DNA of 40,399 bases from NCBI GenBank assembly GCA_030054295.1, contig JASGCE010000004.1:1-40399 (forward strand), written 5' to 3'. Shown piece after piece: positions 10,086 to 36,118 of this stretch. Every line of letters begins with the position of its first letter. The first letter of the stretch is position 1. The notes beneath the pieces were generated by a model. That model was given only the letters and a program-made list of their open reading frames with translations. It did no database searches and was not told the DNA's origin. The stretch comes from Minisyncoccota bacterium (GTDB taxonomy: Bacteria; Pseudomonadota; Alphaproteobacteria; Elsterales; Elsteraceae). A program made the translations under genes and the position numbers.

Positions 10086-10387
10086 GACGCGCCGCCGCAG
10101 TTGATGCCAACCAGAAGGAAATCGTCGCCGCCCTTCGGCAGATCGGCGCAATGGTCATCCCGTGCCACGCGGTCGGCCAGGGCTTCCCCGATCTTGTCGT
10201 GGGATATGCCGGGGACACCTTTATGCTCGAAGTGAAGGACCCATCCCAGCCCAAGCATCGCCACGAGTTGACCCCAGCGCAGAAGCTGTTCCACCTCGCA
10301 TGGCCGGGCAAGCCTATCGCCAAGGTGTTCACCGTTCGCGAGGCTTTAGAAGCCGTGGGGATTGAGTTTCGCGGGGTGATTTCGTGA
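10082..10387 (+). CDS. VRR-NUC-type nuclease (PD-(D/E)xK fold)
   Basis: 101 residues with the compact VRR-NUC arrangement. GFPDLVVG supplies Asp37, MLEVKD supplies Glu50 and Lys52, and LTPAQKLFHLAWPG follows with the usual conserved Q and W. Such stand-alone VRR-NUC proteins are found in many phages and are thought to cut branched or flap DNA, like Holliday-junction resolvases. It sits between two replication-region genes with four-base overlaps on each side. Confidence 0.85.
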   Translation: MRRAAAVDANQKEIVAALRQIGAMVIPCHAVGQGFPDLVVGYAGDTFMLEVKDPSQPKHRHELTPAQKLFHLAWPGKPIAKVFTVREALEAVGIEFRGVIS

Positions 10388-10839
10388 TCCGGCTCAGCAT
10401 GGCAGAACGCCTTGGCATGGCAGAGGCCAGGGGCGCGCGGCTGGAGTCGCGGGTTCTGAAGCAGGACGCCGTAATCGAGGCACTAAATGCCAAGGTTGCC
10501 CTCTTGGAAGCCGCAATGAAGGGCATATCCCACCCACCGGCAAAGCCAAAGGACGTGGATATCGAGGAAAACCCGGCCATGCTGGCGTCGGTTCTGTCAG
10601 CTGCGAAGATGTCCGAAATCGCCGCGCGGGTGGCGTTGACCCGCGATATGACAGTGGTGGAGCTTCGGGGCCCATCACAGCTTGCGCACATATCCCGCCC
10701 ACGCCAAGAGGCCATGCTGATCATGCACGAGGCGGGCTATTCAATGCCCAGGATCGGACGGTTCTTTCATCGGGACCACACGACGGTCCTGCATGGCATC
10801 CGAGCCGCGAAGGCCAGAAGCGGCAACGCCCCCGAATGA
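10384..10839 (+). CDS. DnaA domain IV-like DNA-binding protein
   Basis: 151 residues. The N-terminal 45 residues form a likely coiled coil, then a Pro-rich linker. The C-terminal stretch (105-145: HISRPRQEAMLIMHEAGYSMPRIGRFFHRDHTTVLHGIRAA) closely follows domain IV of DnaA, whose RDHTTVL signature contacts DnaA boxes. No AAA+ ATPase domain is present. It may direct the phage origin or mimic or redirect host DnaA. Its stop codon lies in the loop of the terminator hairpin at 10822-10853. Confidence 0.8.
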   Translation: MIRLSMAERLGMAEARGARLESRVLKQDAVIEALNAKVALLEAAMKGISHPPAKPKDVDIEENPAMLASVLSAAKMSEIAARVALTRDMTVVELRGPSQLAHISRPRQEAMLIMHEAGYSMPRIGRFFHRDHTTVLHGIRAAKARSGNAPE

Positions 10840-10856
10840 TCGAGGGCGTTGCCTTT
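10822..10856 (+). terminator. Rho-independent terminator overlapping the end of the DnaA-like gene
   Basis: GGCAACGCCCCCGA (10822-10835), loop ATGA, TCGAGGGCGTTGCC (10840-10853) forms a 14-bp stem with one mismatch, then TTT. The TGA stop of the DnaA-like gene sits in the loop. It should end or attenuate the rightward early transcript ahead of the replication gene. Confidence 0.75.
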
Positions 10857-10876
10857 GTGCTGGTTAGGCGCTATGG

Positions 10877-10954
10877 TGCAATGGAGGATTGCAAGGCCAT
10901 GTATAGCGGGTGTGGTGCCCAAATGCAAGCCTTGCCGAGTAGAGCAAGGTAGTC
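10877..10954 (+). promoter_or_regulatory. Structured leader with a Shine-Dalgarno-sequestering hairpin before the replication gene
   Basis: Three pairings are possible. TGCAAT-GGAGG-ATTGCA (10877-10893) is a small hairpin. CCTTGC (10930-10935) pairs with GCAAGG (10944-10949), and that GCAAGG holds the only AAGG Shine-Dalgarno for the GTG at 10955. GCCTTGC (10929-10935) can instead pair with GCAAGGC (10891-10897), which would free the Shine-Dalgarno. The last two are mutually exclusive, as in a translational switch. The helices are short (6-7 bp), so this is a candidate only. Confidence 0.45.
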
Positions 10955-11728
10955 GTGGCAAAAGAACGAATCCCATATTTCAGATTTTACCCCGGCGACT
11001 TCATGCGCGGGGTTCGCGGCCTGTCAGCGCAAGAAATAGGGCTTTACGTCATGCTGCTGTGCCGCATGTATGAGGAAAGCGGCCCAATCGAGAACCACGC
11101 GTTGAAGCTTTCAACCTACTGTGGGATGCGGCAGGCGACGTTCCAGAAGACGCTAGATCGGCTGATCGCGCTGGACAAGATTGCGGCATCGGACGGTGTG
11201 CTTTTCAACGAACGGGCGGCGGTAGAAATTTCAAACCGTGCGGACGACTTGAAAATTGCATCCAAGGCAGGAAAAGCAAGCGCAGAAAAAAGACAACAAA
11301 ATCAACGCGGACAGTCAACGCCCGTTCAACGCCCGTTCAACCATACAGATACAGATACAGAAAGAGAAGATTCAGTAGCTAAAGCTACTGACGCAAGCGT
11401 CGATTTTGCCAAGCAGCTTTTCGACCGTGGCGTGGCCTTTCTCGGCAGACACGGAACCCAGGACAAGCAGGCAAGGTCGGTCATCGGAAGGTGGCGCAAG
11501 GCGCATCAGGACACCGACATATTCGAAGCCTTCGCAGCATGTTCGAAGGAGGGGATCGTTGACCCGGTTCCTTGGATCACGGCGAAGCTGAGCGGAAAGG
11601 GGAAGGCCAATGGAACTGACAAGCAACAGCGGAAACTCGACGCCTTCATTGCGGGATCAACCGGATCACCGCCAGTGGATCGCGGGCCGGATTTATACCC
11701 TGCTGTCCCACTATTGGCGCGAGGATGA
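10955..11728 (+). CDS. DUF1376-like (YdaU-type) phage replication protein
   Basis: 257 residues from a GTG, the only in-frame start matching the family opening (MAKERIPYFRFYPGDFMRGVRGLS). The first 90 residues are a DUF1376/YdaU-type winged-helix domain (LSAQEIGLYVMLLCRMYE, QATFQKTLDRLIALDKI). A low-complexity linker (about 105-145, including HTDTDTERED) and a helical C-terminal domain follow. Such proteins occupy the replication-initiator position of lambdoid genomes. The linker DNA contains repeat clusters resembling an origin, as in lambda gene O. The gene overlaps the next by 119 bases in another frame. Confidence 0.8.
   Translation: MAKERIPYFRFYPGDFMRGVRGLSAQEIGLYVMLLCRMYEESGPIENHALKLSTYCGMRQATFQKTLDRLIALDKIAASDGVLFNERAAVEISNRADDLKIASKAGKASAEKRQQNQRGQSTPVQRPFNHTDTDTEREDSVAKATDASVDFAKQLFDRGVAFLGRHGTQDKQARSVIGRWRKAHQDTDIFEAFAACSKEGIVDPVPWITAKLSGKGKANGTDKQQRKLDAFIAGSTGSPPVDRGPDLYPAVPLLARG
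11302..11391. other. Candidate replication origin inside the replication gene
   Basis: Within the linker-coding part lie two exact 11-bp repeats TCAACGCCCGT (11315-11325, 11326-11336) with degenerate copies at 11302 and 11337. Three TACAGA hexamers (from about 11344), a purine-rich tract and a perfect palindrome TCAGTAGC-TAAA-GCTACTGA (11372-11391) follow. Lambdoid origins have iterons plus an AT-rich segment at the same place in gene O. The match is architectural, not by sequence. Confidence 0.4.
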
Positions 11729-12023
11729 CCCGGACGCCCTGACCACGGCTATCGCAAGCGATTGGGTCGAGGTCTTGGCCGGGATGCCGCAGCGGGCCAT
11801 TCAGACGGCTTGCCTGCAGTATCTTCGGGATGAACCGCGCCGCAAGCCGACACCGGGGGCAATCCTGGCGCTGGCAAGGAACGCCGCGCCGCAACCGCCA
11901 CGTCTTGTGGTCGCATACACGGCACCACCGCCGCCCGAGAGGATCAGTGCGGAACGTGCAAACGAGATCATGAACGAACTCGGGTTCCGCCCGAAAGCCT
12001 TTGGAGGGAATATCGATGATTGA
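11610..12023 (+). CDS. Replication-associated phage protein, possible helicase-loader analogue
   Basis: 137 residues. The ATG at 11610 overlaps the preceding gene by 119 bases in a different frame; a GTG or later start would remove conserved-looking residues (QWIAGRIYTLLSHYWREDDPDALTTAIASDW). The middle, DWVEVLAGMPQRAIQTACLQYLRDEPRRKPTPGAIL, is helical and resembles proteins encoded right after DUF1376 genes in phages, where a helicase loader normally lies. There is no Walker A motif, so it would not be DnaC-like. The C-terminus is Pro-rich and then helical. Confidence 0.6.
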   Translation: MELTSNSGNSTPSLRDQPDHRQWIAGRIYTLLSHYWREDDPDALTTAIASDWVEVLAGMPQRAIQTACLQYLRDEPRRKPTPGAILALARNAAPQPPRLVVAYTAPPPPERISAERANEIMNELGFRPKAFGGNIDD

Positions 12024-18731: not shown

Positions 18732-20638
18732 GCACAATCGTCACCCGAGCCGGGAAAGGCAGCCCGCTAACCCACAACGAAGTTGATGCCAACTTCACCA
18801 ACCTGAACACGGACAAGCTGGAAAACGGGGCTTCCTTCAACTCGATCACCCGTGCGCAGATCGAGGCAGCCCTGATTGCCGGGGCGAACGTCACCATCAC
18901 GCCTGCCGGATCAGGGGCAGCCCGAACGCTTACCATCGCGGCTTCGGGCGGCGGGGGCGTCACTGACGGCGATAAGGGCGATATCACGGTTTCGGGCGGC
19001 GGTGCGACGTGGACTATCGACGCGGGTGCAGTGACGGTTTCCAAGATGGCGAACCTCGCGGCCAGCACGATCCTGGGGAACGACACCGGGGCTGGCGCGG
19101 CCCCTATTGCCCTGACTGTGGCGCAGGTCAAGACGCTCTTGGCCTATACCCCGGCGGACATCGGCGCGGCCACGGCGGCGCAAGCGAACGCCACGCATAC
19201 CGGGGATGCGACGGGGGCCACCGCCCTTACCTTGGCGACGGTCAACAGTAACGTTGGTTCGTTTGGGTCGGCTACTCAGGTCATGACGCAGACCGTCAAC
19301 GCCAAGGGCCTGACCACGGCTGCGGCAAGTGTGGCCATTGCCATTCCGGCTTCGCAGATCACCGACTTCGCCACTGCGGTTGCAGCTACAGCGGCAGTGG
19401 CGGCGAACACTGCTAAGGTCACCAATGCGACCCACACTGGCGATGTTACCGGCTCAGGCGCGCTGACCATTGCTAACGATGTCGTCACGAATGCCAAACT
19501 TGCGAACGTCGCCACGGCCACCATCAAGGGCCGCACAACGGCTGGCACGGGCGACCCGGAGGACCTGACCGGAACGCAGGCCACAGCTCTGCTGGACGCC
19601 TTCACCAGCGGGGCTAAGGGTCTTGCCCCTGCATCTGGCGGCGGGACGGCCAACTTCCTGCGAGCGGACGGGACTTGGGCTGCCCCGCCCGGGGGTGGTG
19701 GGGGATCCCCGGGCGGGGCGAGCGGCGAGGTCCAATACAACAATGCCGGGTCCTTTGCGGGTGCGCCAGACGTAGAAATTGAGGGCGGGCAGCTTAGGCT
19801 CCCATCAATATCGACCCCCTCGGCCCCGGCTGCGGGAGGTGTAAAGGTATTCGGAGCATCGACGGGTGGCCGAGGTATGGTGACGGCTCTGGCACCGACT
19901 GGCCCTGCCACAACCATGCAGCCTCATATCGGGCGATCCAACGTTTCCTGGGTCAAGCCGTTGAGCAACGGAACCACAGTCCATAACTTCGGTATGACGG
20001 TCAGCGCCACCGGGGTCCCCACGGCGGCAACGGTAGCGACGACCAACATTCACACTGCGGCGAAACGGATAGAATATGCGGTTACAACTGCCGCGACGAA
20101 CGCAGTGGCCGGGTGGAGGTCTGGCATTGGCGCGCAGAACTACATCGGCGCGGCGGGACAAAAGCACGGCGGTTTCCATGCGGTATTCCGCTTTGGTCGG
20201 TCCAGAGGGGTCGCCGCGAACGCCACACTTCGGGGGTTCACCGGGCTGACCTCATCCGGCGCACCAGTGGACGCCGAACCATCCACGCAGATGGTCAATG
20301 CTATTGGCGTCGGGTGCGACGCAGCGGATACGAACTACCATATCATCCACAGGACCGCATCCGGGGTCGCGACTAAGGTCAACACTGGCATTGCAAAAGC
20401 AGTGGCCGACACGAGCGAACTCTATGAGCTGATCCTGTTTGCCGCGCCCGGCGTCGGTGGCGCGGTCGGGTATCAGTTCACGAGAATGAGCGACGATGTG
20501 ATCTTCTCCGGGACGATTACGACCAACCTGCCAGCGGATACCACCTTGGTGCAACCCTGCGGTTGGTATTCTGTGGGCGGCACGTCATCCGTGATTGGCT
20601 ACGCGCTATCGAACTATTACAGTGAAACCTCGATCTAA
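18728..20638 (+). CDS. Tail fibre or head-fibre-like structural protein
   Basis: 636 residues from the ATG at 18728. The opening [20 protein letters not shown] is a common start of phage fibre proteins. The body has Gly/Ala/Thr-rich repeats ([61 protein letters not shown]) typical of trimeric beta-helix or collagen-like shafts. The C-terminal 230 residues form a globular beta domain ending [20 protein letters not shown]. It is probably a receptor-binding or decorating fibre. Its position right after the portal gene is unusual for a tail fibre, so a head fibre is possible. Confidence 0.8.
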
Positions 20639-35837: not shown

Positions 35838-36118
35838 ACTGGGCGGTCGCCCTCAAGGCCGTCATCGGCGCGCTTCTGGGGCCGCTTGCTGCCCTCGTCC
35901 GTGAAATGCGGGCGAGGGCGGCAGGAAAGCGAGAAGCCCGTCAGGAAGACCAGATTTTGACCCGGGATGCCGTCATCAAGGCGAAGGACGCGCGCGATGA
36001 GATCGAGAATGAAATTGCGGCCGATCCTGACCTTGTGGCTCACGCCACTCGCGCTGGCCTCGTGCGTGGGGTCAAGCCCGACCCCGTCACCAAGCCCTAC
36101 CCCCGACCCAAGCACTGA
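35834..36118 (+). CDS. Rz: Rz-like inner-membrane spanin
   Basis: 94 residues from the GTG at 35834 that overlaps the holin stop. An N-terminal TM segment (AVALKAVIGALLGPLAALVREM) is followed by a charged coiled coil (ARAAGKREARQEDQILTRDAVIKAKDARDEIENEI) and a Pro/Lys tail. This is the i-spanin layout. Another frame starting at 36009 encodes the matching lipoprotein, so both membranes are linked at lysis. Confidence 0.75.
   Translation: MNWAVALKAVIGALLGPLAALVREMRARAAGKREARQEDQILTRDAVIKAKDARDEIENEIAADPDLVAHATRAGLVRGVKPDPVTKPYPRPKH

Follow-up and report, generated by a model that had tools for sequence, protein, structure and literature searches.

A putative control module with two competing RNA folds upstream of a phage DUF1376 replication gene

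The short block of DNA in front of a phage replication gene in the 40,399-nucleotide stretch analysed here (the window) is probably a real and previously uncatalogued control element, as judged from matching changes of paired bases in seven related loci (L210, L215, L217, L219, L264, L271 and L275). Positions 10822–10954 may constitute a portable control module, in which a terminator, a promoter and a 5′ untranslated region (5′UTR) gate the translation of the gene, a reading that we judge to be evenly balanced. The features of the block are listed in Table 1, where members are the window and the related loci that carry the module.

Table 1. Positions of the genes, promoter elements and pairings in and around the leader.
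Feature	Positions	Strand	Remarks
Upstream gene, protein with DnaA C-terminal (HTH) domain	10384–10839	+	Pfam PF08299, E 1.7e-14
Hairpin T, terminator-like, 10 bp + 3 bp, then TTTGTG	10822–10853	+	−23.5 kcal/mol; hairpin at the same place in all members
TTGCCT, a −35-like element; overlaps the 3′ arm of T	10849–10854	+	TTG kept in all 8 distinct members
P1, a small dyad (GTGC-TGGTTAG-GCGC) in the spacer of the promoter	10857–10871	+	20/20 cells paired, five members
−10-like element TATGGT	10872–10877	+	All 8 distinct members have TA[TAG]G[GA]T
Dyad P2, the hairpin TGCAAT-GGAGG-ATTGCA with loop GGAGG	10877–10893	+	Watson-Crick 4-bp dyad, five members
Pairing B, 5′ arm GCAAGG	10891–10896	+	Pairs with 10930–10935; 6/6 pairs in 8/8 members
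Stem-loop P3, enclosed by B (TGTAT/ATGCA, GGG/CCC)	10900–10927	+	25/25 cells, five members
CCTTGC, arm common to B (3′) and A (5′)	10930–10935	+	Exact
GCAAGG, 3′ arm of A (P4), holding the Shine-Dalgarno	10944–10949	+	Shine-Dalgarno-containing arm paired in 8/8
DUF1376 / primosomal replication gene, start GTG	10955–11728	+	Pfam PF07120, phrog_9327

The leader and its promoter in the window

The gene that begins at 10955 had been taken for a phage replication gene, and two matches agree on this: PF07120 (DUF1376), with an E value of 8.8e-14 and 52.1 bits against a cut-off of 30.1, and phrog_9327, which is annotated as primosomal protein (E 3.9e-41). The preliminary description allowed that an upstream in-frame start would make the GTG irrelevant. 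The relevance of this GTG is upheld, since it is the sole in-frame start after the stop codon at 10940 and the homologous proteins start no more than 2–3 residues from it. No other copy of the replication protein was found by protein search in the genomes of the nearest family, order and class. The two copies of GCAAGG, the single CCTTGC and the GTG are all present exactly as first described, and AAGG (10946–10949), lying within the second GCAAGG, is indeed the sole Shine-Dalgarno for this start.

Hairpin T, which carries the stop codon of the DnaA-like gene in its loop, ranks with the strongest local hairpins of the window (−23.5 kcal/mol on the + strand, −30.0 kcal/mol on the other). Other very strong hairpins of the window are found at 19683–19718 (−33.5 kcal/mol) and 35887–35922 (−30.6 kcal/mol). 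Of the strong terminator described before the leader, the stem is present in all members, where it surrounds or closely follows the stop codon of the upstream gene, but the run of T after it is short in the window; the run is fair in L215 and L217 and absent in L210 and L219.

A putative promoter inside the module had been overlooked in the preliminary description. The pattern TTG-N16/17-TANNNT is kept in 8/8 distinct members with a spacer of 16–17 nt, which agrees with an alphaproteobacterial sigma70 promoter in its TTG-type −35 element, its TANNNT −10 element, its spacing (16–18 nt) and its conservation. The sigma70 consensus of S. meliloti is CTTGAC-N17-CTATAT (PMC2573895), and the CTTGC-N17-TATGGT of the window fits it. 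The distance from the end of the −10 element to the start codon is 76–81 nt in the members; the predicted transcript start at about 10884 in the window gives a 5′UTR of 71 nt, and the predicted 5′UTR is 70–75 nt in all eight. It is most likely that this conserved promoter starts the leader RNA near 10884.

Because the module carries a conserved promoter, the RNA would begin near 10884 and the 5′ arm of the GGAGG hairpin would lie outside it. This hairpin, named as the third of the leader, exists exactly at 10877–10893, but its 5′ arm (10877–10882) is upstream of the predicted start; being mostly upstream, the hairpin is probably not part of the leader RNA. The joint chance of the dyad is 5e-5 for P2 in five members and about 1e-3 for P1 in the first five members. 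Both dyads are present in those five and less clear in the other three, P2 not being uniform in L264, L271 and L275. They may be operators, or may act as RNA within read-through transcripts.

The pairing motif of the window is weak evidence on its own. The same end-anchored arrangement of 6-mers turns up in 13 of 5000 shuffles and, per strand, in 29 of 5757 real windows (0.5%); in stability, the long leader does not exceed its shuffles (fold z 0.11). The z-scores of the 5′UTRs of the members are likewise modest, from 0.2 to −2.8. What raises the leader above chance, as far as alignment and pairing can tell, is the evidence from its relatives.

The module in related loci

An alignment-based scan yielded 80 DUF1376 loci, of which four relatives (L210, L215, L217 and L219) carry a leader of 110–140 nt. 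Three more clear members, in front of more distant DUF1376 genes, were recovered by a search that combined the promoter, B and the distance to the start (L264, L271 and L275); the descriptor of this search required B. When the promoter alone was searched in front of the 80 DUF1376 genes, with B not required, exactly the members and the window were returned at 76–81 nt, and the single extra match (L246, 58 nt from the start) is unrelated. The module thus stands as a unit of 110–120 nt upstream of DUF1376 genes in seven further distinct loci. An eighth, L276, is a near-copy of L275, and the distinct members are the window and these seven. The leaders of L276 (about 2341–2385) and L275 (1016–1060) are near-identical; in hairpin T they differ by a single base, which disrupts a pair of the stem in L276 and weakens it from −22.6 to −15.7 kcal/mol.

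In each of the first five (the window, L210, L215, L217 and L219), the conserved (C/G)TTGC lies 110 or 111 nt from the end of the start codon, and the nearly invariant parts are TTGC and then TA[TAG]G[GA]T, 16–17 nt past the hexamer. The gene upstream of the module varies: by resemblance, it is DnaA-like in the window and L217, nuclease-like in L210 and L264, and RusA-like in L215. The module would therefore travel with the DUF1376 gene. On a protein tree, the leader is patchy among the first five and about four changes are needed, which points to repeated loss or exchange.

Most other DUF1376 relatives have no leader and a 4-nt overlap with the upstream gene. The nearest annotated relatives also lack it; in the Rhodobacter kunshanensis prophage (L002/L006), EBPR podovirus 2, Sulfitobacter phage pCB2047-C and L206, the gene upstream reaches into the replication gene or stops just short of it. 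A leader private to the phage of the window was suggested by these leaderless relatives and was overturned by the seven loci with the module. Two further searches brought no additional members: the pattern GCAAGCCTTGC..GCAAGG gave 113 stretches in viral contigs, and the examined ones had neither a DUF1376 gene nor a leader-wide match; a covariance model (R1) run against 397 genomes gave chance-level matches and nothing clearly new, one of its top twelve loci passing a loose promoter/B filter in a chance-like manner. A DUF1376 relative, L227, has an upstream gap of 113 nt (2388–2500) in which the module is absent and a different short ORF lies.

The pairings are kept in these loci with compensatory changes, so that the covariation whose absence was to count against the leader is found for both A and B. 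In the hand alignment, 48/48 cells of B are paired in the eight sequences, with two to three types of pair at 4/6 positions. In the version derived from MAFFT, in which L217 is off by one column, 93.8% of the cells of B are paired against 83.4% after shuffling, the covariation score of B exceeds that of every shuffle (0/500 reach it), and slid registers give 31–67% pairing. The pairing of P3 in five members (Table 1) is matched by only 1/120 permutations, and swapping arms between sequences lowers the pairing in P1, P2, B, P3 and P4. The hairpin A that hides the Shine-Dalgarno occurs in 8/8 members with differing sequences. For the first five leaders, the joint chance is 8e-8 for B and 1.7e-12 for B, P3 and P4 together, both figures being optimistic, as the permitted ranges were chosen with the data already in view.

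The module, the promoter pattern, B, P3 and P4 rest on comparison of eight distinct sequences, with predicted structures and hand alignment. The leaders could not be structure-aligned by MAFFT, and N-padded hand alignments were used. B depends on the manual register, since RNAalifold on the MAFFT alignment returned only a 4-bp helix resembling P4.

The same arrangement in seven other loci with different sequences also bears on whether two GCAAGG and one CCTTGC merely arose in a GC-rich leader and have no function. The z of 0.11, the motif in about 0.3–0.5% of shuffles or windows and the leaderless nearest annotated relatives would suit such an accident, but it is contradicted by the compensatory changes and is hardly credible.

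Competing folds and alternative readings

The two pairings had been described as an off and an on state. A does hide the sole Shine-Dalgarno, but B frees the start only in the promoter-derived RNA and not in a read-through transcript. Folding was computed at 37 °C. In the read-through transcript, A is strongly favoured (0.94–0.98), and the start codon is still mostly paired when B is forced. For a promoter-derived RNA of the window that stops at the start codon, B is favoured (0.97) and the Shine-Dalgarno is free; with 33 nt of coding sequence added, A is favoured (0.81). A refutation drawn from the read-through RNA, in which B does not open the start, was dropped once the promoter was recognised. 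The shift from B to A with the length of the RNA would suit the order of events during transcription in the window, though this behaviour is not shared by all members.

Mutual exclusion of A and B stands in part. The two share the whole arm (6 nt) in the window, L271 and L210, where they are fully exclusive, and 4 nt in L264, where they are nearly so; in L215, L217, L219 and L275 the overlap is 2–3 nt and the two can nearly coexist. In the promoter-derived RNA, the energy difference between B and A computed for the eight members, and for these only, falls between −2.8 and +3.0 kcal/mol in all of them. In the window, the folds are 0.9 to 2.8 kcal/mol apart, varying with the length of the RNA. 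The predicted winner also varies: L210 is strongly in A, and L264 and L275 are mostly in B. On paper A and B do compete, and the competition is partly conserved.

In the model that we propose, the activity of the promoter and the terminator, the switching between A and B in the cell and control by any factor are inferred. Hairpin T probably terminates the upstream message, and the sigma70-type promoter (TTGCCT at 10849 and TATGGT at 10872), with its −35 element overlapping T, would begin a new mRNA near 10884. The resulting 71-nt 5′UTR may adopt either of two folds that compete and differ little in energy. In one of them (B), GCAAGG at 10891 and CCTTGC at 10930 would pair around P3 and leave the Shine-Dalgarno free; in the other (A, or P4), CCTTGC would pair with GCAAGG at 10944 and hide it. 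Since one of the two folds hides the Shine-Dalgarno, the translation of DUF1376 would be throttled by RNA structure. A shift in the balance, brought about by transcription speed, binding of a ribosome or protein, or temperature, could set the amount of the initiator. It is further conceivable, though rather unlikely, that the loci represent a new family of phage 5′UTR switches, where a trans factor such as the DUF1376 initiator or a host protein binds B/P3 or P4 and times DNA replication. The sensing of a ligand, RNA or protein by the leader, as suggested earlier, is not supported.

The main rival to a regulated switch is a static attenuator, a lesser but still sizeable possibility. Here the promoter and the hairpins of the 5′UTR would fix a low rate of translation or protect the mRNA, with B/P3 as a 5′ stability stem beside the Shine-Dalgarno hairpin, and nothing would switch. 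That B and P4 can largely form together in L217, L219 and L275, that the favoured state differs between members, and that the predicted UTR holds no conserved ligand-like core except GCAAG before B3 all speak for such an attenuator. The arm shared in whole by three members and over four nucleotides in L264, and the near-equal energies of A and B in all eight, argue for the switch instead.

Alternatively, the dyads may act as DNA, as operators of a phage repressor and/or as part of a replication origin, rather than as RNA structure. P1 and P2 flank the −10 element at or before the transcript start, and replication origins often adjoin initiator genes. P4, on the other hand, always holds the Shine-Dalgarno and ends 2–7 nt before the start codon in 8/8 members, the spacing of the half-sites varies, and most DUF1376 relatives have no such region; we hold this reading to be improbable.

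Translational coupling was considered through a small ORF (10836–10952), whose ATG at 10836 overlaps the stop codon of the DnaA-like gene and whose 38 codons end in TAG at 10950, two nucleotides before GTG 10955; ribosomes that end this ORF would melt hairpin A and restart at the GTG. The perfect ATGA overlap and the placement of the stop are as coupling would have them, the start site is as closed as in coupled genes, and the codon score is borderline (5th percentile among coding windows; higher than in 90% of non-coding frames). The 38-codon peptide has no homologues, however, no matching ORF occurs in the relatives, and the ORF starts upstream of the transcript start predicted from the conserved promoter. 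The ORF was rejected for this role as not conserved, and coupling through it is very improbable.

Comparison with known systems and neighbouring observations

The RNA-level gate can be set beside known leaders. In plasmids, tap-repA of R1 (CopA) and repY-repZ of ColIb-P9 repress the translation of their initiators by RNA structure over the ribosome-binding site, and these leaders depend on the translation of a leader peptide and on an antisense RNA. The predicted fold over the ribosome-binding site of an initiator and its similar purpose are shared with the module, whereas the 38-codon ORF is unconserved and found in the window only. No antisense promoter-like site was found near the leader.

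Translational riboswitches, for instance SAM-II of alphaproteobacteria, also expose or hide the Shine-Dalgarno by alternative pairings of the 5′UTR, as the module is predicted to do. The module differs in that it has neither an Rfam match nor a ligand-related gene. No Rfam family matches the leader; riboswitch matches were absent at the gathering and at a relaxed threshold in the window, and absent in L210, L215, L217 and L219, and no conserved ligand-binding core was identified within the predicted UTR.

The closest likeness is to phage lambda cIII, whose 5′UTR, according to the passage of PMC4166951 that refers to Altuvia et al. (1989), is in equilibrium between two conformations that exclude each other, the ribosome-binding site being covered in one of them. 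The leader of the window likewise has, by prediction, two exclusive folds, one occluding the ribosome-binding site. The lambda element (RF01804, Lambda_thermo) controls a regulator of lysis and lysogeny and not a replication gene, and the host group and structure differ too. The RF01804 score is only 14.3 bits, on the opposite strand, against a gathering threshold of 50, which is at chance level, and the leader is not a member of that family. The best reading is by analogy a conserved translation-gating 5′UTR that would work most like the cIII leader.

The module offers precise base pairs that can be tested. Compact and patchy across DUF1376 phages, it puts a promoter of its own and a 5′UTR with two competing folds in the place of a tight overlap between genes, so that the phage could time its replication without dependence on the genes upstream. 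To our knowledge, an mRNA fold that controls the start of replication, well known in plasmids, has rarely been described for phage initiators. Reaching the right relatives was decisive here, the nearest annotated phages being without the module.

Overlapping genes were also observed in the window. The gene at 11610–12023 shares 119 nt with the 3′ end of the DUF1376 gene, and its counterparts in EBPR podovirus 2 (gp9) and Sulfitobacter phage pCB2047-C are 50–60% identical to it. The C-terminal tail that lies in the overlap (DAFIAG..GSP.VDRGP) is retained in gp8 of EBPR podovirus 2, the remainder of which has no similarity; it is as if the overlap had fixed the tail while the N-terminal domain was swapped. 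Elsewhere, a cytosine-methyltransferase-like ORF (1940–2929) and a 259-codon ORF (2079–2858) overlap almost totally on the same strand in different frames, and both look protein-like by eye.
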